Source of the DNA: Bryobacterales bacterium
GTDB taxonomy: Bacteria; Acidobacteriota; Terriglobia; Bryobacterales; Bryobacteraceae
Direction of reading: 5' to 3'
DNA: 20,248 nucleotides
Assembly: GCA_003487005.1 (NCBI GenBank)
Contig: DNFG01000184.1
Coordinates: forward strand, 1-20,248
This document shows positions 561 to 15,969 of this stretch, in pieces (positions within the stretch are counted from its first letter, which is position 1; each line of letters begins with the position of its first letter). Below the pieces are notes generated by a model. It made no database searches and had not been told where the DNA came from. It saw only the letters and a program-made list of their open reading frames with translations. The translations under genes were made by a program, and so were the position numbers.

Positions 561-1652
561 ATGCATGTGTTCTTCGATCCCGATGGGCGGCCCATTCTCC
601 TCGGCTCCCAGATGAGATGGGATTTGGAGCCGAACGCTTTCCTGAGAAGGCTATGCGTTGTCAACGGCAGGACATCCTCGCCGAGAACCTGGCGGAGCTA
701 TGCATATCAACTGGCCGACTGGCTGAGCTTCTGTGACCGAGGCGGCGTCGACTGGCGGCACGTTACAGAACTCAACATTGCAGCGTTCCGAAATCTCCTC
801 ATCTCGGAAGCATGCCCCACAACAGGGCGGCATCTCAAGCGGGGCACGATCAATCACAAGCTCACTGTGATTCTTCAGTTCTATCGGTTCGCCCAGAAGC
901 AGGGCTGGATCGACAAACTCCCCTTCGAGATCGAAACGGTTCGCGTTCCGCATCGCGGGTTCGGCGAACTCAGGGCAGGCTCGGCCCCGCCCTCGGGCCC
1001 GGCGTCGAGATTCAGCTTGAGACTGCCTGAGTTTCGCGATGACGTGCAGATTCCTCCTCGAGAGGAGGTGCGGCGATTCATCAGGAGCTTCAAGAGCTGG
1101 CGTGACAGGCTCATCGCCGAGTCGCTGTGGCTGACAGGCATGCGTGCGTCCGAGGTCTGTTCATTGTCGCTGACCGCGCTTCCCAGATCTCTCGGCGCAA
1201 TCGATAGGGACTCAATCGCTGTCAAGATCGTTGGCAAGGGGCAAAAGCCGCGGGCCATCGTGTTCCCAGTCCGTTTGCTGCGCTCGATTGACCGGTACGT
1301 CCATATGGAACGGCGACGCTGCACGAGCGGCGCTCCCAGAGTTGCCGATCTCGTATTCGTAGGACGCGACGGGCGGCCGCTCAAAACGCCGGCCGTCAAT
1401 CGTGTATTCTCCACCAACTGCCGGCGGACGGGACTTCGCATCTGGCCCCATCTGCTCCGCCACGCCTATGCGGTTGAGCGGCTCGCATACCTTCAGGACA
1501 TAGGCGCGCCAAATCCTCTAAAGACGCTGCAGTTGGAATTGGGACACTCCAGTCTTACAACTACCGAACATTACCTGCACATAACCGATCGAATGCGGAG
1601 CGACCTGCTGGCGGCGCACAACAGTTTCGTGGACCGACTGCTGGAGGAATGA
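561..1652 (+). CDS. Tyrosine recombinase A (Tn554 TnpA-like), 363 aa
   Basis: Site-specific recombinase of the phage-integrase superfamily, which cuts and rejoins DNA through a covalent 3'-phosphotyrosine link. An N-terminal SAM-like DNA-binding domain (about residues 25-115) precedes the catalytic domain (about 165-345). All catalytic residues are visible: R195 in TGMRASE, K226 in GKGQKPR, H297 and R300 in HLLRH, H329 in ELGH and nucleophile Y338. The length matches Tn554 TnpA (about 361 aa). It is the first gene of a four-gene operon; the next starts 3 bp after its stop, with its ribosome binding site (GGAGGA) inside this gene. No strong ribosome binding site precedes the ATG at 561, and no earlier in-frame start is evident. 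Most likely the catalytically active transposition protein. The family is certain; the exact element type is inferred. Confidence 0.93.
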   Translation: MHVFFDPDGRPILLGSQMRWDLEPNAFLRRLCVVNGRTSSPRTWRSYAYQLADWLSFCDRGGVDWRHVTELNIAAFRNLLISEACPTTGRHLKRGTINHKLTVILQFYRFAQKQGWIDKLPFEIETVRVPHRGFGELRAGSAPPSGPASRFSLRLPEFRDDVQIPPREEVRRFIRSFKSWRDRLIAESLWLTGMRASEVCSLSLTALPRSLGAIDRDSIAVKIVGKGQKPRAIVFPVRLLRSIDRYVHMERRRCTSGAPRVADLVFVGRDGRPLKTPAVNRVFSTNCRRTGLRIWPHLLRHAYAVERLAYLQDIGAPNPLKTLQLELGHSSLTTTEHYLHITDRMRSDLLAAHNSFVDRLLEE

Positions 1653-1655
1653 GCC

Positions 1656-3299
1656 ATGCGGCGGGACGGAGCAGGGCAGCGTTGGAAGTCGATCGAGCCG
1701 GACTCGATTCGGAAACACGACCTTGATCAACTCCGCGCCGCGAACGCGCCGCTCGAACAGAGGTTGGAGCGCCCAGGAGAACAGCCTTTCACCGTCAAGC
1801 TGGCGTTCCTATCGTCACGTCCCGCCTTGGCCCGTGTGCTGGCCAACGCGTTCTGGCTTCTGCACAAGGACAGGCGTCGCAAGCTCAGCGTGATCAGCTG
1901 CGCGTATTGCCTCCGGCTCTTTAGCCGGTTTCTGGATTACCGGATGAGTGGCCAGCCGGACATAGTGTCCGCAAACCAGCTCTGCGCGGATGTACTCAAG
2001 GAAATGGCGGTCTGGCTGGTTGTCGAGCGCCGGCTCAAGAGGATTAGCGCGGCGCACACCCTCAACATGTGCTGCTGGTTCCTTCGCCAAGCGAGAAGAC
2101 TTTATCCGGAGGACTTCGACCCAGGCTTCTCCACTCCCCGCAACCTGTTTCCCGGTGTCGAGAAAGAACGGCCACTGTCGAAAGCGCTGCCGCCGAAGGT
2201 ATTTCAGAGGATACTGGCCGCAGCCTCGAAGGACATTGATGAAATACGGCGGACATATGCTCCAGGCGATGTGCCGACCACCGCTCGGCAGATCATCCCA
2301 TTCATGATCCTGATTGCCGCCCGCACCGGCATCAACGCCGATGCGCTGTATAGCCTCGAGCGGGAATGCCTTGTCCAACATGAGGTCGACGACGATTGTT
2401 TTTACCTCGTCTGGGACAAGCCGCGCGCGGGCAAGCGGCAAAGGCAACTTCATCGAGTCGACGGACGCCAACAGTCCGGTGTCGTGGAACTGGTCCGTTT
2501 CATGCGCGAATATACCGAACCGCTCGCGCTGAAGGCGGGACCGCCGGCGAACGCCAAGCTGTTTCTGTATCAAAGTGAAAACACGTGGCTCAAGAACCGC
2601 CTGATCTCGTCCTGTACGGCGCCCCGGTTGTCATGCAGGCGGCTTCGACAATTCCGGGAGTGGCATGATCTTCCGCCGTTTAGCTTGTCCAACATCCGGC
2701 CATCGGCTGCCACCTTGCTTTACCTCCGGACCGCCGGGAACTTAGGGAAAGTCCGGCAGTTCCTTCAGCACGCGCACTTCTCCACGACCATCCGATATGT
2801 AATCAACCACGTCACAGAGGAGTTTAACGCGCGGGTGATTGAGCAGGCGCAGACGCGAATGGTTGAGCGCATGGCCGTCATTGCAGAGGAACGAGAGGTC
2901 GGGATCAAGCATTTGGACCTGCCGCGCGCGCAGGCCAGGAAGATCCAGCAAGGTCGATACGATACAGCCTGCGGCACCTGCCGCGATCCCTACGATTCGC
3001 CGCAAGCGAATGAAGTGAAGGGTCGCCCATGCACCTCGTTCCACGCCTGCTTCAGCTGCCCGAACGCTCTGTGGTTTCTCGATGACTTACCACTCGTGAT
3101 TGCTACCCGCGACCGGTTTCTGCGCCTGCGGTCGGAAATGAACCCGAACGATTGGAACGCCGTATACGGCGACAATGTCCGCATCATCAACGAGGAGATC
3201 ATCTCCGCGTTTCGGCCCGAACAGATCAAGGTCGCCGCCGCACGGGCGAAGGAGCTTGGCGAGGGGTCTTTGATTATCGCGCAAGGGGTGCTGGGATGA
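1656..3299 (+). CDS. Tyrosine recombinase-like protein B with degenerate active site, 547 aa
   Basis: Second recombinase-type protein of the operon. The C-terminal half has the integrase fold signature, but the active site is incomplete. The box I arginine is replaced (TGIN, N227 where TGMR is expected). In box II the HxxR histidine is missing (SLSNIR, only R348 kept). H372 and Y381 of box III remain (LQHAHFSTTIRY). After the catalytic domain comes a cysteine-rich tail with C439xxC442, C459 and C465xxC468, suggesting a zinc-binding knob. It starts 3 bp after gene A and overlaps gene C by ATGA at 3296-3299, so expression is coupled. By family logic it may act as an accessory or regulatory subunit in a recombination complex. 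Alternatively it belongs to a subfamily using a different arginine, such as R223, just before the box. Confidence 0.85.
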   Translation: MRRDGAGQRWKSIEPDSIRKHDLDQLRAANAPLEQRLERPGEQPFTVKLAFLSSRPALARVLANAFWLLHKDRRRKLSVISCAYCLRLFSRFLDYRMSGQPDIVSANQLCADVLKEMAVWLVVERRLKRISAAHTLNMCCWFLRQARRLYPEDFDPGFSTPRNLFPGVEKERPLSKALPPKVFQRILAAASKDIDEIRRTYAPGDVPTTARQIIPFMILIAARTGINADALYSLERECLVQHEVDDDCFYLVWDKPRAGKRQRQLHRVDGRQQSGVVELVRFMREYTEPLALKAGPPANAKLFLYQSENTWLKNRLISSCTAPRLSCRRLRQFREWHDLPPFSLSNIRPSAATLLYLRTAGNLGKVRQFLQHAHFSTTIRYVINHVTEEFNARVIEQAQTRMVERMAVIAEEREVGIKHLDLPRAQARKIQQGRYDTACGTCRDPYDSPQANEVKGRPCTSFHACFSCPNALWFLDDLPLVIATRDRFLRLRSEMNPNDWNAVYGDNVRIINEEIISAFRPEQIKVAAARAKELGEGSLIIAQGVLG

Positions 3300-5149
3300 A
3301 CCGTGGGGCCCCTGGTGCGGCCACCCCGGGAGCCCGGCTCGGCGCGCGAGACGATAACCTGCAAGTGACGTCGACCTCGCGGTTCTGGGATGTCGTGTGG
3401 GATTTCTCGAACGAGAATAGAAATCCGGCCGCGGGCCGCTCGGATAAGAGAATACGCTGGGCTTTCAAACTTCCCGGCGGCGCCCTGTTCACCGACGCCC
3501 GCTTTCGGTCACTGCTCACGGCGTCGAAGCAGCTTGTCTACGCCCTCCGTTGGCACCCGATCGACGGGCCCGTGCATTCCCCGGCAAGCCTGCGCAACGT
3601 ATTCAAGGCGCTGAAGAGATTCATCGCACACCTGGCGGGCTATTCAAGTCCCATACTCCGATTCAAAGACGTTCTACCGCACCACTGCGACGACTACATT
3701 TTGGAGGTGTCTGCTTCTGATACCAGCAGGGCCATGAGATACAGATGTCTCCAGGTCTTGCAGACGCTCTTTCAGTACAGAAGCCTCATGGACGATGGCT
3801 TGGTCATCGACCCCCTGCAGGGCGAATCGGCGGCTAGAATCGCGGGCAGCGGCGGTGGCAGTTCCGGAAGCACCACAGAGATTATTCCCGAGGTCGTCCT
3901 CGGCCCTCTTGTGCGGGCTTCCCTTCAGTACTTGGATCTGTTCTCCAACTACCTATTGGACTGCGCAGACGAATTGGAGGACATTCGGGCCGGCGCAACT
4001 CCAATCCTGTTTCAGTACCACGGCTCGCGGCACCTGCGCTTGCGCGCAGTGGCGCCATATTCGCTGGCGGGCAGTCGCCTCGCACTGGGTGTGCGCTCGC
4101 TGCGGCAACTGAGCACAGAGTTGTGTCATCTCCAGACCGCTTGCTTTGTGCTGATCGCCTTCGCCACGGGCATGCGACTGAGTGAGTTGCTGTCGTTGCA
4201 GGAAGGCTGTTGCGAGGTGGTAAAGGAACCAGGGCGACCGGACTTGGCATGGCTGCACGGCAGGGTTTTCAAGATGCAGGGCGTCCCCGACGGCCGCGAG
4301 GCCAAGTGGCTGGGCGGTCCCCTTTGCTGTAGAGCTGTTCAGGTCCTGGAGCGGCTGGGCAGCGCGACGCGGCGGCGAGCAGGAGTCTCGTATCTGTGGA
4401 TGCCCGTACCGTCTGTCCATTCGCGTCATCAGACGCGCGACCCTTTGTCGCAAGCAGCGATACTTCAGCGGTTGTCGAATTACGTGGCGATGCTCGGCTT
4501 GAAGGACCAGAAAGGCGGGTCCTTCCACATTCATCCCCACATGTTCCGGCGCACTTTCGCCAGGTACGTTGTCAGGTATGACACAACCAATTTGCTCGCC
4601 CTCAAGGAGCACTTCAAGCACATCTCGCTCACGATGACAGATCACTACATCGGCAATGACCTGGAGCTGTGGATGCTGCTGGAGGAGGAAACGGAAAGGG
4701 TCTCGTTCGAGAGCTTCGACAAGGCGCTGCGCGCCGACCGGCTGGCCGGCCCAGGCGGCGCCCGACTGAAGAGAAAAGTCGACCAGGCGATTTCCGAAGG
4801 CCGCCTCGAGAAGCACTTTCGAGGAGAAGCCGGCGATCACCTGCGCCGCAAGATGATTGTGGAGTTGATCGGCGCAGGCCAGCGCGTTTACCCCTGCGCT
4901 GCCTCCAACTATTGCTGGTTCCATGAGGGAACCGCGCTTTGCACGGGAGGGGATCGGCCGGTGCTGCAGCGGTGCAACCCCGGCGCCTGCCGCAATTCGG
5001 TAATCACTCTCGAGCATAAGCCGCATTGGGAGCGCGTGAAACGAGAATGCGAATCCCTGATGGAGTGCAAACCGCGGGCCGAACCCTACCAGAAGGCTCT
5101 GCGGGACATTCATGCCGTGAGCAATGCGATCTTGCGGAGTCTGGAATGA
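3296..5149 (+). CDS. Tyrosine recombinase C (Tn554 TnpB-like), 617 aa
   Basis: Third recombinase of the operon, similar in size to Tn554 TnpB (about 630 aa). Start chosen at ATG 3296, which overlaps the stop of gene B as ATGA and has AAGGGG upstream; the frame stays open further upstream, but that part lies inside gene B. A long N-terminal DNA-binding region (1-270) includes a glycine/serine linker near 184-193. The catalytic domain carries R294 (TGMRLSE), K326, H415 and R418 (HMFRR), H442 and Y451 (TMTDHY), so it looks fully active. The C-terminal part (about 530-590) is cysteine-rich (C534, C540, C549, C560, C565), comparable with the tail of protein B. Together A, B and C form a recombinase trio. 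Confidence 0.9.
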   Translation: MNRGAPGAATPGARLGARDDNLQVTSTSRFWDVVWDFSNENRNPAAGRSDKRIRWAFKLPGGALFTDARFRSLLTASKQLVYALRWHPIDGPVHSPASLRNVFKALKRFIAHLAGYSSPILRFKDVLPHHCDDYILEVSASDTSRAMRYRCLQVLQTLFQYRSLMDDGLVIDPLQGESAARIAGSGGGSSGSTTEIIPEVVLGPLVRASLQYLDLFSNYLLDCADELEDIRAGATPILFQYHGSRHLRLRAVAPYSLAGSRLALGVRSLRQLSTELCHLQTACFVLIAFATGMRLSELLSLQEGCCEVVKEPGRPDLAWLHGRVFKMQGVPDGREAKWLGGPLCCRAVQVLERLGSATRRRAGVSYLWMPVPSVHSRHQTRDPLSQAAILQRLSNYVAMLGLKDQKGGSFHIHPHMFRRTFARYVVRYDTTNLLALKEHFKHISLTMTDHYIGNDLELWMLLEEETERVSFESFDKALRADRLAGPGGARLKRKVDQAISEGRLEKHFRGEAGDHLRRKMIVELIGAGQRVYPCAASNYCWFHEGTALCTGGDRPVLQRCNPGACRNSVITLEHKPHWERVKRECESLMECKPRAEPYQKALRDIHAVSNAILRSLE

Positions 5150-6390: not shown

Positions 6391-7239
6391 CTAAGGACCC
6401 GCCACGCTTGACGGGCCATCGATTGCCGGCCGCGACAGGCCAGCCCGCTTTCCCATCCTGCGCCAGAGGCGTGGATCTATCGAGAGTGGCACTGCTCGCG
6501 AGTGTGCGATGTCCACGAAGCCGCCATGACGCGAGATACGACCGTGCCTGAACAACTGCGCAAGCAACGCCAGAGCGTGATGCGCCAACACGGTATTCAC
6601 GAAGCATTCCTGACGTTCAAGCGCCTCGATCGCGCTGCAACTCGGTTCGTCGTCATCGTCGAGAGCCGGGTCGACAATCTCCGGAAGGACCTCCGCCACT
6701 GTCGGCAGTCGCGTCCGCGACCGCCTGTTCCTCGCGTTCCGCGGCTCACCCAAAACGAATTGCCCACTTGAAGCGCTGTTGCCAATGTCGAGCCAGTAAC
6801 CCACGCCACTGGAGGACGCAGTGCCCTCGGCGATGATGGCGCGTGCCGCCCGCGTGTCCACACAACCGATCACGATGTCCGGACGCAGAGCCGGGCCGCC
6901 GTTGCCGGCATACGATGCCGCAAGAGTCTCTGCGGTCAGAGGCAGGGGAATTGCAATCCAATTCAGGCCCCAGAACAGGTTGATCCGGCTCACCAAGACA
7001 ATCGCCTTGTTTAGCCCGATCTCGCTTCGGCTGAATGGCTGGCGGACGCAATTGAAGGGCGAAACAGTGTCCCCGTCCATCACCGTGACACGCAATCCGT
7101 ATGGATGCCCTTGAACGAGCATCGCCTGGTGGATGTAGGGCAGTCCGCCAATGACAACACTGCCGGTTCCGCCGCACCCGACGACCAGCACTCTCACTTC
7201 TCGATGCAGCAGGTCTTCGTGAAGGAAATGGGTTTCCAT
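6391..7239 (-). CDS. PRTRC system ThiF/E1-like protein, full-length copy, 282 aa
   Basis: E1-like adenylating enzyme of the ThiF/MoeB superfamily, PRTRC type. It has the nucleotide-binding loop GCGGTGS (21-27), the acidic MDGD (54-57), N63xxR66 in FNCVRQ and D128 in CVDTR. A PSCSAIEALERQ segment contains C201, a candidate thioester cysteine. About 80 residues follow, including GGFVDIAHSRAVPL. By family logic it would adenylate the C-terminal glycine of a small ubiquitin-like protein, plausibly PRTRC C encoded upstream. The start at ATG 7239 is supported by GGAGGG at 7245-7250; the open frame extends upstream without a comparable site. It is the last gene of the long minus-strand block and is preceded by a shorter homologue, roughly 60% identical by eye over the shared part. 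Confidence 0.88.
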   Translation of the reverse strand: METHFLHEDLLHREVRVLVVGCGGTGSVVIGGLPYIHQAMLVQGHPYGLRVTVMDGDTVSPFNCVRQPFSRSEIGLNKAIVLVSRINLFWGLNWIAIPLPLTAETLAASYAGNGGPALRPDIVIGCVDTRAARAIIAEGTASSSGVGYWLDIGNSASSGQFVLGEPRNARNRRSRTRLPTVAEVLPEIVDPALDDDDEPSCSAIEALERQECFVNTVLAHHALALLAQLFRHGRISRHGGFVDIAHSRAVPLSIDPRLWRRMGKRAGLSRPAIDGPSSVAGP

Positions 7240-7244
7240 GCTTG

Positions 7245-7250
7245 CCCTCC
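7245..7250 (-). promoter_or_regulatory. Ribosome binding site deciding the start of the full-length E1-like gene
   Basis: GGAGGG on the minus strand, 5 bp before ATG 7239. It supports this start over the in-frame ATG at 7350, which would add 37 residues absent from the homologous neighbour. Confidence 0.75.
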
Positions 7251-7324
7251 AGGGGGCGGACAGCGCGCAGAACTTGCTTTCCCGCCGTAACGAGATTTGG
7301 GCCGATGGGAGCAGTTCGAGATTC

Positions 7325-7344
7325 GGGGCGGCCAAAGCCGCCCC
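7325..7344. repeat. GC hairpin upstream of the full-length E1-like gene
   Basis: Perfect 8-bp stem (GGGGCGGC / GCCGCCCC) with a 4-base loop at 7333-7336. It lies in the leader of the full-length gene. It has no T-run on either strand, so a classical intrinsic terminator is unlikely; an RNA-stabilising or attenuating stem, or simply GC-rich spacer, is possible. Confidence 0.5.
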
Positions 7345-7470
7345 TGCCATTCCGGCGCTTGAGTCGGCGCTCGGGTCGCATTCCTGCGGAGCCCTATCCT
7401 CCGCTCAAGTACCGTCATTGTAGCCGAGTCGGGCAGACATTCTGGCGAAAAAGCGGTAAATTCCGGGGGG

Positions 7471-7650: not shown

Positions 7651-8256
7651 CTAATATAACTGCCGTTCCAATGCCTCGACCGCGCTACAGCCTGGCTCAG
7701 TTTCGTCCTCCAAGTCCGGATTGACGATCTCCGGAAACAATTCAGCCGCCGTTCGCAGGCGGTTCGCGGATCGGAGATTGCGGCCGTTCAGTGGCTGGCC
7801 GAGCACGAACTGACCGCCGTCGGCCGTGTTACCAAGATCGAGCCAGTAACTGACCCGGCTCCTCAGCCCTTCCACTTTCCTGCTGATCAGCCTTCGCGCC
7901 GCGCGCGTATCGACACACCCGATGACGATGTCCACGTTGCCCAGGTCAGTGGTGTCCGCGAGATGCTCAGGGACGGCAGTCCAACGCACGCCCCAGAACA
8001 GGTTCAGGCGACTCACCGTCACGACGGCTTTGTTGAGGCCGATCTCCGTTACGCAAAACGGCTGGCGGACGGTGTTCGTTGGCGAGATAGCGTCCCCGTC
8101 CATGATAGATACGGCCAGTCCGCCGGGATGACCGGAGACGATCATCGATTGGTGCAGATAGGGCAGTCCCGCCGCGATCGCGCTTCCGGAACCGCCGCAA
8201 CCGACGACCAACACGCGGACGGGCCGCTGGAGGAGATCTTGGCTCAGTTCGTGCAT
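7651..8256 (-). CDS. PRTRC ThiF/E1-like protein, C-terminally short copy, 201 aa
   Basis: Homologue of the full-length E1-like protein encoded just downstream. It keeps the nucleotide-binding loop GCGGSGS (19-25), MDGD (52-55), NTVRQ, CVDTR and the GCSAVEALERQ segment with C190, then stops 11 residues after that cysteine at TAG 7651-7653. About 80 C-terminal residues present in the other copy are missing. The start at ATG 8256 has GAGAGGGGG upstream and follows the PRTRC B stop (8268) by 11 bp; the frame stays open further upstream, but only inside PRTRC B. It could be a truncated remnant, or a shortened paralogue that dimerises with the intact copy, as E1 enzymes often work as dimers. Because the remaining open frame shows no decay, I call it a gene and not a pseudogene, with moderate certainty. 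Confidence 0.75.
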   Translation of the reverse strand: MHELSQDLLQRPVRVLVVGCGGSGSAIAAGLPYLHQSMIVSGHPGGLAVSIMDGDAISPTNTVRQPFCVTEIGLNKAVVTVSRLNLFWGVRWTAVPEHLADTTDLGNVDIVIGCVDTRAARRLISRKVEGLRSRVSYWLDLGNTADGGQFVLGQPLNGRNLRSANRLRTAAELFPEIVNPDLEDETEPGCSAVEALERQLY

Positions 8257-8267
8257 GACACCCCCTC

Positions 8268-8978
8268 TCACCGGTCGCGCCGGATGAACTCCGCAAGCGT
8301 CTCGCCGGCTGGCCGGAGCGATCCTGTCCGGAAACGTTGGTGTCCCCCTTTGAGGGCTTCCAGTGTCTGGCAGTAGCCCCGTTTCGCAGCCAGGAGTTTC
8401 TTTACCCCGGTCTGGTGCGTGAACTCGCTCTGAAAGAACGCCTGTTCCCAAGCGGCGAGCGAAGCAATTCCGCCAACTTCCGGCGCGCGCATACTCCCCT
8501 GGCAGACGACGCCGGAGTCCCCGTCAGTATTCCAGTACGGCGCGATCATCAACGGTGTGTCTGCGCTCGGCCGCTGGTTCTTCCGCAGAGCACGGACCGA
8601 CAACTCGGCCCCCGCAACTTTCCAGACCAAAGGAGGCTGGGAGAACATCTCCCCGCTCAGGCCCGTTGGTGCCTCACTGTTGGGCCGAAAGTACATCCGC
8701 CTGACCGCGCGCGGAGTCCACCACACCGACAGGTCGCCGGTCCAGGCCAGCATATTCAGCGGAAGCACCTCGGCCGAGGTCTCCGTTCCTAAGCCCTGAG
8801 CCAATCTTCGAAGGAATTCGGTAGTGAGTTCATGCGCCTCGCCGAGGATTATGCCGTCGTGGGGAGATGGTTTCGCTTCATGCCAGGTTACGAAGGCACG
8901 CCCGCGTCCCTCGTAAAAGAGCAGAGCACCCTTGAGGCTGAGCGGCTCGCTGCCGCCGATCGCAACATAGGACTTCAT
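8268..8978 (-). CDS. PRTRC system protein B (E2-like), 236 aa
   Basis: Recognised as PRTRC protein B by its middle region: LVWWTP-type segment (84-89), SQPPLVWKV (113-121), IAPYWNTDGDSGVVCQGSM (145-163) and AAWEQAFFQSEFTH (175-188). The family is related to prokaryotic E2-like domains. C159 lies in a context (proline, tyrosine, then G-x-x-C) very like the eukaryotic E2 catalytic site, where a cysteine accepts a ubiquitin-like protein from E1. That role is inferred, not shown here. Start ATG 8978 has GGAGG 5-6 bp upstream and follows PRTRC F by 10 bp; the E1-like gene starts 11 bp after its stop. Length is slightly below that of many family members. Confidence 0.85.
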   Translation of the reverse strand: MKSYVAIGGSEPLSLKGALLFYEGRGRAFVTWHEAKPSPHDGIILGEAHELTTEFLRRLAQGLGTETSAEVLPLNMLAWTGDLSVWWTPRAVRRMYFRPNSEAPTGLSGEMFSQPPLVWKVAGAELSVRALRKNQRPSADTPLMIAPYWNTDGDSGVVCQGSMRAPEVGGIASLAAWEQAFFQSEFTHQTGVKKLLAAKRGYCQTLEALKGGHQRFRTGSLRPAGETLAEFIRRDR

Positions 8979-10235: not shown

Positions 10236-10445
10236 TTACCCCTTACTACCGATGGCGCGTTCGAAGGTGTAGCGCATCTTGTCGCCGACGGCTTCCGGAC
10301 CGTTGACGACGGCGGTTGCCAACTCTGGGTACTGTGCCGCGTACAGCGCTTTGACTTCGTCTACCGGCATGTTTGGGTTGGGATCCGGAAGCCGGATACC
10401 GTTGAACTGGAATAGCCGGGTCATCTTGGTGATCGTGATGGGCAT
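10236..10445 (-). CDS. PRTRC system protein C (ubiquitin-like), 69 aa
   Basis: Small protein recognised as PRTRC C by its pattern: ITKMTRLFQFNG beta hairpin (5-16), LPDPNPNMPVDEVKALY (19-35) leading into a helix, AQYPELATAVVNGPE and a C-terminal strand KMRYTFERAIGSKG. The order beta-beta-alpha-beta-beta and a terminal glycine (G69) fit a beta-grasp ubiquitin-like protein, the predicted substrate of the E1-like and E2-like proteins downstream. Start ATG 10445 lies 6 bp after the stop of PRTRC E, with AAGGAG inside that gene. That it is conjugated to targets is an inference from family relations. Confidence 0.85.
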   Translation of the reverse strand: MPITITKMTRLFQFNGIRLPDPNPNMPVDEVKALYAAQYPELATAVVNGPEAVGDKMRYTFERAIGSKG

Positions 10446-11463: not shown

Positions 11464-11635
11464 AGGGAGTGTTGGTTTGTTCGCCGATCCCGGCGATGGC
11501 GCTACGCGCCGTCGCCATTTGCGATAGAAGGCCCGCTACGGCTGCCCTCAACTCCGGCGACAGGGCCCGAGATAGGACCTCGTCGAGCGTCCCCTCGAAG
11601 CCTTCCACGAGTGCGACCACGAACCCCGCGCTCAT
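11450..11635 (-). CDS. Small hypothetical protein, 61 aa
   Basis: I do not recognise this protein. Its ATG (11633-11635) overlaps the stop of the upstream DUF3150-like gene (11632-11634) as ATGA, which argues for translational coupling and a real gene. It is mostly helical and amphipathic, with acidic residues in the first 20 positions and alanine-rich sequence to about 50; the last ten residues look disordered. No membrane segment of convincing length. By position between the DUF3150-like protein and SSB it may be a small partner of one of them. Confidence 0.65.
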   Translation of the reverse strand: MSAGFVVALVEGFEGTLDEVLSRALSPELRAAVAGLLSQMATARSAIAGIGEQTNTPCAGS

Positions 11636-12648
11636 GCGTCCTCCTCGTCGAATCGGAACTTCCGGCTACCAGACTTGGTGAGCATTGTGTCGAGTTGGGA
11701 AGCCAGACCCTCCATGCCTGCCTGTACCTGAGCGCGGAGTTCGCCAGTCGAGCGCAGGTCGTCGGCCTCGACACCCTGGAGGAGAGTCCGGGCTTGGTTC
11801 ACGAGCGACTGAAGCTCCGCGTCGTCGGTGACGTTGCGGAACTCGAAGTTGGCCAGGAACTCGACCAGGTTCGAGACGGTCGTTTCCTTGAAACGCACGG
11901 GCTTCCCATTGGCACCCACCTTCAGCCGCTCCGCCATGTGCTGAACAAGTTTCGCCATGGTCTCGCGCAGTACCTGCTGGATCTCCGAAGACGCCTCGGC
12001 CATGCGTTGCGCCGCCTTCTCGCGTTCCTGTTGCCAGACTTCCTGGGAGATGCCCTTGAGCTGATCGGGAACGCCGAAGCTGACGTATTGCCACGAGAAA
12101 CCGAACTCACGCTCGACGTCGCTCGACGGCGGGTAGTCGGCCGGATCGTAGAGACCCCGCAGGCGCTTCGCCGCGTCCTGACACAGGGCCGGGTAGGCCG
12201 CGAGGAACGCCTTGACCAGTTCCTGCCGCTGTTCGGCGAACTGGCGCAGCTTCTGCTCGACGGCTTCGATGGCGGCAATCGGCAGCAGGTGAATGCCGAC
12301 CTCGAACGGCAGGCAGATGTTGTAGAGAAACCGCCGGATCTCGCCGTCGAACCGGCCAATCGCCTTCAGTTCGGCGGAATCGAGCAGGTGCTTCGAGACG
12401 CGCAGAAGGTCCTTGTCGGCGTCCGCCTCGATTTGGGAAGTGGAAACCTTCCGGGTGTTGCCCATCGTCGACAGGCGGACCTTGATGCAGACGGTCTTCC
12501 GGGCGAGATCGACGCCAGGATCGTGAATCGGAACAGTCGGGGACGAAGACGGCGGGTCTCCGTCCGCGCCGTTGCCGGTCGGCATAACGGGGACCGGCAG
12601 TGTGAGCACCGCGCCGACAGACGCAAAGAGACTGCCTTGTGTGGCCAT
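11632..12648 (-). CDS. DUF3150-like coiled-coil protein, 338 aa
   Basis: Resembles phage and plasmid proteins of the DUF3150 type, though I recognise it only from layout. A disordered proline-rich start (15-45) is followed by VCIKVRLSTMGNTRKV (53-68) and a long helical region with LLRVSKHLLDS and LRQFAEQRQELVKAFLAAYP. Next comes DYPPSSDVEREFGFSWQY (about 178-195) and a coiled coil EREKAAQRMAEASSEIQQVL. A C-terminal domain ends in the acidic DEEDA. Such proteins are often found near SSB and AAA ATPases in mobile elements, but their role is unknown. Start ATG 12648 has GGAG about 7 bp upstream. The radical SAM gene ends 35 bp upstream and the 61-aa gene overlaps its stop. Confidence 0.65.
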   Translation of the reverse strand: MATQGSLFASVGAVLTLPVPVMPTGNGADGDPPSSSPTVPIHDPGVDLARKTVCIKVRLSTMGNTRKVSTSQIEADADKDLLRVSKHLLDSAELKAIGRFDGEIRRFLYNICLPFEVGIHLLPIAAIEAVEQKLRQFAEQRQELVKAFLAAYPALCQDAAKRLRGLYDPADYPPSSDVEREFGFSWQYVSFGVPDQLKGISQEVWQQEREKAAQRMAEASSEIQQVLRETMAKLVQHMAERLKVGANGKPVRFKETTVSNLVEFLANFEFRNVTDDAELQSLVNQARTLLQGVEADDLRSTGELRAQVQAGMEGLASQLDTMLTKSGSRKFRFDEEDA

Positions 12649-12683: not shown

Positions 12684-13256
12684 CTAGCCAAGAACTGGCG
12701 AGCCGAGAACGGGGAAGCCGGTGATCTGGGCCAGACCGGTATCGTCGATGTGGACTTCCGCGGCTTGTGCCTCGAAGTCAGCCATTGAGTAGCGGGTAGT
12801 GTACAGATGCAGCACCTGGTTGGTTGACGTAACCAGCGGATCGTGGCTGCGCCGCCTTGCGTTGTAGCGGCCAAGCACAGCGAAATCCAAGTGGCCCTGC
12901 ATAGCTCGCCACAAGGCGTCAGGGAGTTCCCGTTCCGTGTAGCCCGAGAACAGCCCTGTGGTCACTGCGGGGTGTGCCGCCTTCAGCCTGCGAAGCAGTT
13001 CCAGAACCGCTGACGCCTGCTCCATCGGTTCGCCGCCGCTGATCGTGAGCCCCTCGATCCGGTTCTCGCAGCTTACCCTTGCGAACCATTCGAGGATCTC
13101 CGAAACATCGCGCTGGAAGCCCCGCAGCGGGTCGTGTGTCTGCGGGTTCCAGCAACCTGGACAGCGCAGCGGACAACCCTGCACCCAGACCACCGCTCGA
13201 GCTCCGGGGCCGTTCACAGTGCTGGACTCCATGAAAGCGTGGACACGGAGTTGCAT
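12684..13256 (-). CDS. Radical SAM protein, NrdG/activating-enzyme-like, 190 aa
   Basis: Small radical SAM enzyme. C28-x3-C32-x2-C35 (GCPLRCPGC) binds the 4Fe-4S cluster that cleaves S-adenosylmethionine; GGEP at 74-77 is the SAM-binding motif. The size and the N-terminal STVNGPGAR-type start resemble anaerobic ribonucleotide reductase activase (NrdG), which makes a glycyl radical on NrdD. No NrdD-like gene is in the window, so it probably acts on another target, perhaps one of its operon neighbours. Start ATG 13256 has AAAGGGTGA upstream, overlapping the stop of the DUF2997 gene. Oxygen sensitivity is expected from the family. Confidence 0.88.
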   Translation of the reverse strand: MQLRVHAFMESSTVNGPGARAVVWVQGCPLRCPGCWNPQTHDPLRGFQRDVSEILEWFARVSCENRIEGLTISGGEPMEQASAVLELLRRLKAAHPAVTTGLFSGYTERELPDALWRAMQGHLDFAVLGRYNARRRSHDPLVTSTNQVLHLYTTRYSMADFEAQAAEVHIDDTGLAQITGFPVLGSPVLG

Positions 13257-13262
13257 GGCGGT

Positions 13263-13463
13263 TCACCCTTTGATCGAGTTGCGAACCACCCGGCTTTCGG
13301 CCGCAGTGACGTGGAATTCGCGCTTCTTGCGGTCCACGACCAGAGTGTCCTTGTCCCGCAGCGCTTCGGCAACATCGCCGCAGCCTTTGCCGTGAAAGCC
13401 GTGGAGGTCGATGGAACTGTTGCCCTGTTCGTCGATCTCGACGGTGATGGTCTTCTCGCCCAT
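13263..13463 (-). CDS. DUF2997 small protein, 66 aa
   Basis: Small beta-rich protein of the DUF2997 type, recognised by TITVEIDEQGNSSIDLHGF (5-23) followed by GKGC (25-28) and a helix. The single conserved cysteine C28 and short length suggest a carrier, a substrate or a regulatory subunit, but no function is established. Start chosen at ATG 13463 because AGGAGG lies at 13470-13475; an upstream TTG at 13469 is less likely. In cyanobacteria and plastid-related lineages such genes lie beside DUF1257/Ycf35 genes, as here. The radical SAM gene starts 6 bp after its stop. Confidence 0.75.
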   Translation of the reverse strand: MGEKTITVEIDEQGNSSIDLHGFHGKGCGDVAEALRDKDTLVVDRKKREFHVTAAESRVVRNSIKG

Positions 13464-13469
13464 ACTCAA

Positions 13470-13475
13470 CCTCCT
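13470..13475 (-). promoter_or_regulatory. Ribosome binding site for the DUF2997 gene
   Basis: AGGAGG on the minus strand, 6 bp before ATG 13463. It overlaps the last base of the TGA stop of the DUF1257 gene (13475-13477), so translation of the two is likely coupled. It decides the start at 13463. Confidence 0.75.
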
Positions 13476-13888
13476 CAGCGGACTGCGAACCGGAGTTGCA
13501 CCTTCTTGCCGGCAGGCGTTTCAACCACTTGCCGCCCCAGGAACCGGTAGCCTTTCGACTTCGCGACCGTCATCGTCTGGCGCTCCTTGTACGTCTGGGC
13601 AACACGTCCCAGCCAGGCGTCATTGAACCCGATGCCACGGTCGTACTCACTGATGAGCGCACGGTAAACGCCGCCTTCGTCTCGGGCGAAGCCGATGTCG
13701 TTGCTGGCCGAGTCGAGTTGCCGCCGGCGAATCACGATGTGGGCTTTCTCCGGCCTCTCGTCACCGAGGTAGCCGTAGAGGCTCATGCCCTCGTTCGAGA
13801 CTTCCGGGCTGTACCCAAGCTCCCGGAGCGCCTCGACAAGGAAGCGCTCGTCGGCCAAAACCGTACGCAATTCTTCAAATTTGCTCAT
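13475..13888 (-). CDS. DUF1257 (Ycf35-like) protein, 137 aa
   Basis: Resembles the DUF1257/Ycf35 family: a helical start (FEELRTVLADERFLVEALRE), GYSPEV, a central strand region with DIGFARDEGGVYRALISEYD and a C-terminal GYRFLGRQVVETPAGK strand pair. Function is unknown, but the family is conserved in algal plastids and cyanobacteria and is often adjacent to AAA ATPases and DUF2997. Start ATG 13888 has AGGGAG upstream, overlapping the stop of the AAA gene, which it follows by 12 bp. The arrangement with a Ycf46-like ATPase immediately upstream is the main context clue to a joint role. Confidence 0.75.
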   Translation of the reverse strand: MSKFEELRTVLADERFLVEALRELGYSPEVSNEGMSLYGYLGDERPEKAHIVIRRRQLDSASNDIGFARDEGGVYRALISEYDRGIGFNDAWLGRVAQTYKERQTMTVAKSKGYRFLGRQVVETPAGKKVQLRFAVR

Positions 13889-13900
13889 GGCAGTGCTCCC

Positions 13901-15403
13901 TCAATCCCCGATCTCCCGGAACGAGCGCCTTCCTGCTCCGACTGCCGAGGGCTCGTTCTCTGCTGAGTACACACCCGGCTGGGACGCATTCAGGAATCGC
14001 CCAGAGGCCTGCCGCCGCAGCGCCTCGATCTGGTCCGCTGCCGAGCGCGAAACGGGCACGATGTACGCTGCCGATTCGCGTAGAGAGAGCTTCAACCGCC
14101 AAGCCTTTCGGCAGCACTCCTTGATCTCGGCGCCGGTCCAGCCATCGTCATCCGGGCGCTCGCCGTTCAACTGCCAGCGGTGCTCGTAGATGTTCCAGAT
14201 CGCCTCGCGCTCCTCGGCGGTTGGCAGGTCAAAGAAGAACGTCCCGAGCGTGAACCGCCTCCGTAGTTCAGGCGGCAGGCTCGTGATGGAATTGCAGGTG
14301 GCGATCCAGAGGCTTCGGCCTTGCGAGATGGCATCGACCACTTGTAGCGCCGCCCGCAGCCGTTCGCCCGAGCCGCCGACCAGCGAACTCTGCATGGCCG
14401 CCAGGTCAAACGCCACGGTTGGGACCCCTGCCGTCGCGCCCGCGGCCTTCGCCACGGCCGATTTCGCGGCACCCGGCGGCCCGATGAAGATCACGCCGTC
14501 CGCGCCGCGGTCCTGCATCCAACTAAGCATCGTGCCGGTCATCTCGGTCTTCACGCCCGAAGTGTCCGTTCCACTGCCAGCGAAGGCCTTCTCGATCTCG
14601 TCCACGAAGACGATGACACGGGGCGCTTCCTCGCCGTGAATGACGGCGTCGAGGAAGCGTTTGATGTTCTCGCAGCCGCCGATCTGATCAAACGTCTCCC
14701 CGCCTCGCCAGATGGTGAGTCCCGGTGTCTGCTCCACCGCCTGCCGTTTGCGATCCCAGAGCCGGTCGAATTCCAGTCCGCTTTTCGAAAGCGACATGGC
14801 CAGCACCTGTTCCGCCGGGAACGCGGCCAGGCCTACAAGCGCATCGACCGCCTTGTGGATGATCTCCTCGCTCGGCGCCGGAAGTTCGGCCGCCTCGAAG
14901 GTCTCCCGCACGAGCGACGCGAGTTCCTCCGCCGATGGCAGAGGCGCGTCGATGACCATGACATCGCTCTGCAGTTCCGCTGGCAAGGAGGCGCCGGGTG
15001 TCGAGATCAGCACGAGCACCTGGCCGTTTGCCTTGAAAAGGTCGCGCAGATTCCAGACGCCTTGCAGAACGTCTACCTGCTCCCAAACACGCTGCGGGTT
15101 GAGGAAGAAGAGGATGGCGTCCCTGGCGATCTTCTGCGCCGCCGCCAGAGCGTCGGCTGGGCCGAGGGGGCCGGCGTTCTCGCCGACCAGCTTGCCTGCC
15201 GCGGCCTTGCCAGGCTCGTTGCGGCCCATTAGCCCATTGAGAATGTCCCAGACCACAACTGGGATCTCGCTCTTGCCGTTCAGACTGGCCATGACTTGTG
15301 CCATGGCGCTGGCCGGGTCGGCCGTCCGAATGGCAACGAGAGGGGTGCCAGCCCGCCGGGCGGCTTTGAACACACTACGGAACTCCTCGGTGGAACGAGA
15401 CAT
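13901..15403 (-). CDS. Ycf46-like AAA ATPase with Walker B preceding Walker A, 500 aa
   Basis: AAA ATPase expected to couple ATP hydrolysis to protein remodelling. Residues 1-225 resemble the N-terminal half of Ycf46 (VFKAARRAGTPLVAIRT, then VLVLISTPGASLPAEL). The ATPase core begins at IGGCENIKRF (241-250). The order of motifs is unusual. A Walker B-like strand VIVFVDEIEKAF with D268/E269 (263-274) comes first; Walker A GPPGAAKS (308-315, K314/S315) follows. Then come sensor 1 IATCN (367-371), LPPELRRRF (376-384) and a sensor 2-like GWTGAEIK (421-428). No DE pair lies between Walker A and sensor 1. Start ATG 15403 has AGGAG upstream. It precedes the DUF1257 gene by 12 bp. The unbroken frame argues against an assembly error. 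Function in the element is unknown. Confidence 0.85.
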   Translation of the reverse strand: MSRSTEEFRSVFKAARRAGTPLVAIRTADPASAMAQVMASLNGKSEIPVVVWDILNGLMGRNEPGKAAAGKLVGENAGPLGPADALAAAQKIARDAILFFLNPQRVWEQVDVLQGVWNLRDLFKANGQVLVLISTPGASLPAELQSDVMVIDAPLPSAEELASLVRETFEAAELPAPSEEIIHKAVDALVGLAAFPAEQVLAMSLSKSGLEFDRLWDRKRQAVEQTPGLTIWRGGETFDQIGGCENIKRFLDAVIHGEEAPRVIVFVDEIEKAFAGSGTDTSGVKTEMTGTMLSWMQDRGADGVIFIGPPGAAKSAVAKAAGATAGVPTVAFDLAAMQSSLVGGSGERLRAALQVVDAISQGRSLWIATCNSITSLPPELRRRFTLGTFFFDLPTAEEREAIWNIYEHRWQLNGERPDDDGWTGAEIKECCRKAWRLKLSLRESAAYIVPVSRSAADQIEALRRQASGRFLNASQPGVYSAENEPSAVGAGRRSFREIGD

Positions 15404-15432: not shown

Positions 15433-15969
15433 TCAGACGAAGACAGCGGCCAGGTAGATGACCGCGTTAAAGAGGATGTGGGCGATGACCGGGGGAACCG
15501 TTGAACCGGAATCGAGCCGCAACCAGCCGTAGAGCAGGCCCGTACCGAAGATGGCTATGAGTTGGGGCTCGGTGATCCCCGACTTCGACGCGTGCGCCAG
15601 GGCGAAGAGCACTGCGACGCCGAATGCGGTCGCAGCACCAGAGCGAACCTTCAGACGCGCGAGAAGCGAGCCGATCACCCAGAAGAGATAACCACGAAAG
15701 ATCAGCTCCTCCGCCAGAGGCCCGAGCGTGATCGCCATCCAGACGTCCGTGAACATCGGACTGGCGCTCTTGTCGTAGCCACCGAACAACCACGCGACCA
15801 GAATGCCAGCTCCAGCACCAGCGGCCACCGCCTGGACCATTGAACGCCGGCTTGCGGGAACCCAATGGACGTACTCGAAGCCGTGAGAGCTCAGTTTTCC
15901 CCTGACACTCCACATGAGCCAGAGCAACCCGAGTGTGAATGCGATTCCTGCAAAGTGCATCAACAGCAC
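15433..15969 (-). CDS. CPBP/CAAX-type intramembrane metalloprotease, 178 aa
   Basis: Membrane protein with about five or six hydrophobic segments. The CPBP signature is complete: EELIFR (E87, E88, R92), FALAH (F122, H126) and H164 with N168 in IAHILFN. In this family the glutamates and histidines bind a catalytic metal and the enzyme cleaves within membranes; bacterial members often serve in bacteriocin immunity or maturation. It is longest from GTG 15969 (GGGTGA just upstream); ATG 15960 would shorten it by three residues. It sits between the Gp157-like gene (50 bp) and the AAA gene (29 bp). A membrane protease among DNA-maintenance genes is unexpected. Confidence 0.88.
   Translation of the reverse strand: MLLMHFAGIAFTLGLLWLMWSVRGKLSSHGFEYVHWVPASRRSMVQAVAAGAGAGILVAWLFGGYDKSASPMFTDVWMAITLGPLAEELIFRGYLFWVIGSLLARLKVRSGAATAFGVAVLFALAHASKSGITEPQLIAIFGTGLLYGWLRLDSGSTVPPVIAHILFNAVIYLAAVFV

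Follow-up and report, generated by a model that had tools for sequence, protein, structure and literature searches.

An AAA ATPase whose core carries two exchanged blocks, from acidobacterial mobile DNA and phage

Among the genes of the window (by which we mean the whole stretch of DNA analyzed here, 20,248 nucleotides of a Bryobacterales genome) is one for an AAA ATPase in which, judged by its sequence, two adjacent pieces of the C-terminal core are exchanged: a block of ~60 residues, which we call A, and a block of ~40 residues, which we call B. The B-A order is common to a large clade, which counts an isolated phage among its sources, and the ATPase that bears it is carried by acidobacterial mobile DNA and by an acidobacterial phage. 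What kind of protein is this, and could it still work? We think it very probable that this is a tandem AAA protein of the Ycf46-like kind in which the second (catalytic) AAA domain was rearranged, with one origin, and that it would still be a Mg-ATP–hydrolyzing ring that remodels its partners.

Walker B Ahead of Walker A

The gene is an open frame at 13901..15403 on the minus strand, and its product, P0001, has 500 amino acids. The original prediction placed Walker B before Walker A in this protein, and so it stands: VIVFVDEIEKAF at residues 263-274 precedes GPPGAAKS at 308-315, there is no hhhhDE strand between 315 and 367, and VGGSGERLR (342-350), IATCN (367-371), LRRRF (380-384), and GAEIK (424-428) lie where they had been claimed. 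The hhhhDE of this protein is VIVFVDE, residues 263-269. Walker A, Walker B, the sensor 1 asparagine, and the arginine finger of classical AAA (PF00004) proteins are present, and the classical order of Walker A, Walker B, and sensor 1 is violated.

The core runs, on the minus strand throughout, from strand 3 (Walker B) and helix 3, through strand 1 (Walker A) to helix 2, to strand 4 (sensor 1). Block B, placed first, spans residues 261-301 (14501..14623; the Walker B strand 3, then helix 3), is supported by identity to the planctomycete relative P0361 and by AlphaFold2 elements, and holds the Walker B pair D268-E269 (14597..14602). Block A, placed second and likewise supported by identity to P0361, spans residues 302-362 (14318..14500; strand 1, Walker A, helix 1, strand 2, and helix 2), with Walker A itself at 14459..14482. 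The end of strand 4 with sensor 1 (IATCN) lies at 14291..14305, and LRRRF, the arginine-finger stretch of AAA proteins, lies at 14252..14266. Upstream of all of this, residues 1-225 (14729..15403, minus), which have no Walker A, look like a degenerate first (D1-like) AAA domain. PF00004 recognizes P0001 at 48.1 bits (cut-off 21.2) in two stretches, the better of which covers only positions 1-53 of the 131 in the profile; on a canonical relative, it makes one stretch over profile positions 1-130.

The tandem AAA proteins p97/Cdc48, AFG2, and Rix7/NVL have the canonical order in both domains. They are 15% identical to P0001, which differs from them in its degenerate first domain, and membership in the Cdc48 family was rejected (TIGR01243, 18.2 bits vs. 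a cut-off of 802.65). The anti-phage ATPase IetA/IteA resembles P0001 weakly, in the sensor 1 and lid part; here too, membership was rejected (NF042959, 27.8 bits vs. a cut-off of 510).

Conservation of the Catalytic Residues

From 229 full-length permuted homologues, 140 were picked for diversity and aligned (42-82% identical to P0001). E269, K272, G308, G311, K314, N371, and R383 are identical in all 140 and D268 in 139; S315 is kept in 137 and replaced by T in the other 3, and R382 and R381 are found in 125 and 116 rows, respectively. Because the key residues are near invariant, the motif order of P0001 is not a matter of chance. Selection on the gene is purifying: in comparisons with five relatives, three of which have a dS close to 1 or higher, dN/dS is 0.06-0.10 for the gene as a whole and 0.014-0.062 within blocks A and B.

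One position might give pause. In 127 of the 140 permuted rows, the glycine that normally precedes the Walker A lysine has given way to A, S, or C, and the missing glycine ahead of K314 might slow or stop hydrolysis. It is on this substitution that one could build a case for a core that binds ATP without hydrolyzing it, a nucleotide-sensing scaffold in which both the permutation and the lost glycine are tolerated as catalysis is unneeded. We consider such a scaffold unlikely: pure binding would not demand E269, N371, and R383, each identical in 140 of 140 rows, and an AFG2 protein that carries GPPGCSKT, with CSK in the same place, is active.

Block Order Across Homologues

The comparison of motif order among homologues was made with block profiles built from both permuted and canonical proteins. 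Protein searches, each with ~8,000 candidates scored and the best 120 matches listed, gave 2139 matches for P0001, 420 for its counterpart in phage Tunturi_3 (P0122), and 7617 for the canonical Manganitrophus protein P0123; the order classes cover the matches listed, together with open frames from 119 loci. Of 481 matching rows (a few of them duplicates, the window and its own genome or P0122-P0124 and their loci being counted twice), 289 are B-A, 190 are A-B, 2 are truncated, and 0 show any other order. P0001 and its 120 listed matches are B-A without exception (121 of 121), as are P0122 and all 116 matches new in its search among those listed, so that the permuted side comes to 238 of 238 proteins, gp103 of the isolated phage Tunturi_3 included. 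P0123, P0124, and all 120 listed matches of P0123 are A-B. The spacing is nearly as uniform as the order: of the 288 B-A rows measured, 286 place Walker B 40 residues ahead of Walker A and the remaining two 42-43 residues ahead, and in the canonical relatives, Walker B lies 59 residues after Walker A in 184 of 188 measured A-B rows, with 1 of the 289 B-A and 2 of the 190 A-B rows outside the measurement.

The displaced order is thus common to the homologues, and none of the B-A proteins keeps a normal Walker B after the place of residue 315 (a second Walker B block occurs in 0 of 289 rows). The original prediction held that the Walker B strand-helix unit had moved N-terminally, giving beta3-beta1-beta2-beta4-beta5 with the rest in place; the strand order is borne out by homologues that keep it and by canonical relatives that show the source of the pieces, and the move itself is better described as an exchange of two adjacent blocks.

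One might worry that the window, which is a whole contig of a genome 84% complete and broken into 527 contigs, was simply misassembled. The same order recurs in 289 rows from many sources, one of them an isolated and sequenced phage, and we give an assembly artefact virtually no credence; the homologues reject it, and they reject a spurious Walker B as well.

Among the 80 genome loci listed, 35 are B-A, with labels from the Acidobacteria (Bryobacterales, Solibacter, Terriglobia, and the like), groups of the Acidobacteriota. Of 297 evenly drawn genomes of the window's phylum, 3 have a match at E <= 1e-30, the window's own included.

Canonical Relatives and Profile Tests

Against P0361, P0001 is identical at 23 of 59 aligned residues in block A, 19 of 39 (49%) in block B, 60 of 220 in the N-terminal part, and 49 of 117 in the C-terminal part. 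Directly before strand 3, the canonical proteins have a proline (P315 of P0361, at least 90%) with a counterpart in the permuted ones (P261, 136 of 140), and block B therefore apparently took its entry loop along when it moved.

What would happen if the pieces were put back? With a profile of 90 diverse canonical proteins, restoring the canonical order in silico raised the best-domain score in all 236 permuted proteins tested (of 238; two were too short), from a median of 118.8 to one of 347.8 bits, with a median gain of 227 bits in a score that by design favors collinear sequences. For P0001, the best-domain score rose from 129.7 to 361.5 bits and the whole-sequence score only from 327.2 to 361.8. 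The reverse operation, swapping the blocks in canonical proteins, lowered the score in 60 of 60 tested of the 97 held out (median loss, 383 bits). The family profile phrog_8638 matches canonical P0361 over 7-470 as a single stretch (325.7 bits) and P0001 in four (165.3 bits). P0001 thus gives no single collinear match to the canonical family profile and becomes collinear only after block exchange.

These results bear on the suspicion that the DE at 268-269 is a chance motif in an ordinary AAA protein that has lost its Walker B. Only the motif's wrong place speaks for this; a block 49% identical to the canonical Walker B block and near invariant in its family, in sequences whose single-domain fit to the canonical profile improves greatly on rearrangement, makes it scarcely believable.

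At E <= 0.001, a profile of the permuted proteins matched 236 different PDB sequences, and among the 60 listed, there is no solved relative with the permuted order. Their best-matching stretch is block A (residues 302-358, at most 74.7 bits) in all but one, where it is the sensor/lid part. The canonical profile matched p97-type domains in the PDB over ~200 residues at 206.8 bits.

Predicted Structure

The AlphaFold2 model of P0001 (pLDDT 91.9, pTM 0.84) gives the elements of the core with confidence: b3 at 263-267, a3 at 284-299, b1 at 302-307, a1 at 314-325, b2 at 329-332, a2 at 344-360, and b4 at 364-370. In the model of the canonical planctomycete relative, the elements are b1 at 257-261, a1 at 268-279, b2 at 283-286, a2 at 298-312, b3 at 316-320, a3 at 337-353, and b4 at 358-364. 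Both models show a p97-like tandem layout, with an N-terminal half that looks like a degenerate first AAA domain.

The sheet of ASCE proteins has the order 5-1-4-3-2, and a chain that runs b3-a3-b1-a1-b2-a2-b4-b5 could form the same three-dimensional sheet, because strand starts, helix faces, and right-handed crossovers would all be kept. The crossovers would remain right-handed because b3->b1 and b2->b4 cross the sheet in the same direction as the old b3->b4 and b2->b3.

We compared both models with ten solved single-domain chains, those among the matches listed for both. The permuted model aligned 36-49 fewer residues than the canonical one, approximately the size of block B (permuted/canonical: 6g2v, 198/234; 6g2x, 197/234; 6g2w, 197/233; 3cf0, 202/249; 4d82, 202/240; 6bmf, 210/257; 6oo2, 209/254; 6p07, 214/251; 6ap1, 212/257; 8vls, 200/249), a gap that rests on a single canonical control, that may in part be divergence, and that comes from a sequential aligner, which cannot show block B in its old slot. 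Mean-field covariation over 270 permuted rows (effective number 59, which is weak) gave mixed top pairs, some joining block B to block A or to strand 4 and others senseless.

Could block B instead fill the slot of the neighboring subunit, so that the permutation works in trans in a domain-swapped ring? In the model, helix 0 and strand 3 are joined by a short linker (residues 256-262), as such a swap might have it. The single-chain prediction, made with no partner, nevertheless gives the core a ten-residue mean pLDDT of 86-96, and the topology lets a monomer close; a swapped ring seems to us very unlikely, and we prefer a core that closes within its own chain.

Origin of the Exchange

A quick tree built from the flanks only (31 B-A and 41 A-B rows, exchanged blocks excluded) needs one change of order, and the B-A branch has an SH-aLRT of 100. 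The canonical rows nearest to the B-A clade are three from planctomycetes (87, unstarred), and together, they form part of a group of 44 rows (99*) to which ten more canonical rows belong. The tree is quick and without bootstrap, and some of its canonical branches are long; the sister relation of the planctomycete rows is therefore tentative. The single clade suggests that the block exchange arose once. We take the permuted order as the derived one because the canonical order is, to our knowledge, universal in AAA proteins.

The simplest route would be an in-frame tandem duplication of A-B followed by loss of the outer A and B. No duplicated block (A-B-A-B and the like) occurs among the 481 rows, and with such intermediates absent, this route is only the simplest guess.

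Neighboring Genes and the Mobile Element

Directly downstream of the ATPase gene, and also on the minus strand, follow a DUF1257 (Ycf35-like) gene at 13475..13888 (PF06868, 36.9 bits; cut-off 22.2), a DUF2997-like gene of 66 amino acids at 13263..13463 (PF11211, 12.6 bits and E 0.13, below the cut-off of 24.1), a radical SAM (NrdG/activase-like) gene at 12684..13256 (PF13353, 98 bits; TIGR02491, 91.3, below the cut-off of 126.1), and a DUF3150 gene at 11632..12648 (PF11348, 36.4 bits; cut-off 24.9). The DUF1257 gene is the only DUF1257 match in the source genome (84% complete), and the Tunturi_3 counterpart of the DUF2997-like gene scores 29.1 bits with PF11211. The DUF1257 and DUF2997 neighbors of Ycf46-like proteins are both in place, the window's DUF2997 match being below the Pfam cut-off.

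The neighborhood is shared. With proteins of the window, Tunturi_3, Manganitrophus, and Geminocystis as queries (these four source records therefore match by construction), the 42 B-A loci of at least 9 kb yielded DUF1257 in at least 32, DUF2997 in at least 29, DUF3150 in at least 35, and radical SAM in at least 22, and the 60 A-B loci yielded them in at least 32, 31, 10, and 12, respectively, all lower bounds because some loci end early. DUF1257 went undetected in 10 of those 42 B-A loci. In six loci (L034, L083, L084, L085, L088, and L090), no DUF1257 was detected near the permuted AAA gene, and DUF3150 is present in five of them.

On the Candidatus Manganitrophus plasmid, a canonical AAA gene, a 50-aa gene, DUF1257, DUF2997, and DUF3150 stand in a row. 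The Ycf46-like relatives of this kind (with SpoVK/Ycf46/Vps4 names; P0123, which is WDT73634.1, and P0361) share with P0001 their length, D1-like N-terminal domain, AAA motifs, C-terminal part, and DUF1257/DUF2997/DUF3150 neighbors, but they run from Walker A to Walker B, whereas P0001 has blocks A and B exchanged. In phage Tunturi_3, the permuted AAA gene is followed by DUF1257 and DUF2997. Its product, gp103 (XOB77284.1), has the exchanged order of P0001, to which it is 41.5% identical over 96%; it is phage-borne and annotated only as an ATPase, whereas P0001 sits in a PRTRC element. Tunturi_3 is described as an isolated podovirus of Tunturiibacter, in a paper whose main text does not contain the word “ATPase” (PMC11924767). 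In cyanobacteria, DUF2997 and ycf35 adjoin a ferredoxin gene (PMC4284462). Our literature search found no tested function for the DUF1257/DUF2997/DUF3150 set.

The element around P0001 has the PRTRC context of ThiF, B, C, E, and F genes: ThiF twice, B and E above their NCBIfam cut-offs, F below its own, and a Prok_Ub gene, candidate PRTRC C. It also carries SSB, a Gp157-like gene, and integrase-domain genes. Some further features deserve mention in their own right. The two PRTRC ThiF-type genes are consecutive (6391-7350 and 7651-8451), and the second, whose match is confined to positions 1-199 of the 245 in the model, may be a duplicate in decay. The small prokaryotic ubiquitin-domain gene (10236-10445, minus; 99.5 bits) shares the element with ThiF (E1-like) and E2-family-D (PRTRC B) genes. 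The plus strand holds, at 561-5149, three large open frames in succession; the outer two have phage-integrase domains and the middle one has no Pfam match, and the trio resembles tripartite recombinase modules. A CAAX protease (Rce1-like) gene lies directly upstream of the AAA gene (15433-15969, minus), and a YhcG/DUF1016 PDDEXK nuclease gene lies near the contig end (18963-20027).

Discussion

How might such a protein work? Mg-ATP would be bound and hydrolyzed by K314/S315, D268/E269, and N371, together with R381-R383 from the neighboring subunit, and the ATP-driven ring would remodel the partners encoded beside it: DUF1257, DUF2997, DUF3150, and in many elements, the radical SAM enzyme. The canonical form, encoded beside the same genes, would do likewise.

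Natural permutation of a P-loop NTPase domain has precedent in circularly permuted GTPases (the YRG/YqeH family and cpRAS; PMC2430557); those, however, are GTPases, a separate class, and their permutation is at the ends of the domain, whereas in P0001, two internal AAA segments are exchanged. The original prediction knew of no described AAA family with this arrangement, and we too found no permuted AAA in open PMC full text on permuted ATPases and P-loops among the matches listed.

A bolder proposal is that this is the first internal permutation of an AAA+ motor to come from nature and that the exchange also rewires control. Leaving the degenerate first domain, the linker would enter the Walker B strand, not the P-loop strand, and movements of the first domain or of DUF1257/DUF2997 would then act directly on the Asp-Glu pair and on the pore-facing helix 3. 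We hold this to be doubtful; if it were true, it would be a regulatory logic closed to canonical AAA rings.

The order of AAA+ motifs—Walker A, Walker B, sensor 1, arginine finger—has been treated as fixed and is built into search profiles. Domain searches score permuted AAA proteins as partial matches, which is a warning, and a conserved clade with a broken order suggests that the AAA fold needs no fixed motif order. Nature has supplied, in this clade, its own test of how far AAA allostery depends on chain connectivity, with the canonical relatives beside the same genes as the control, and because the permuted form is found in an isolated phage, Tunturi_3, for which there is also a host isolate, the question is one that can be put to the test.
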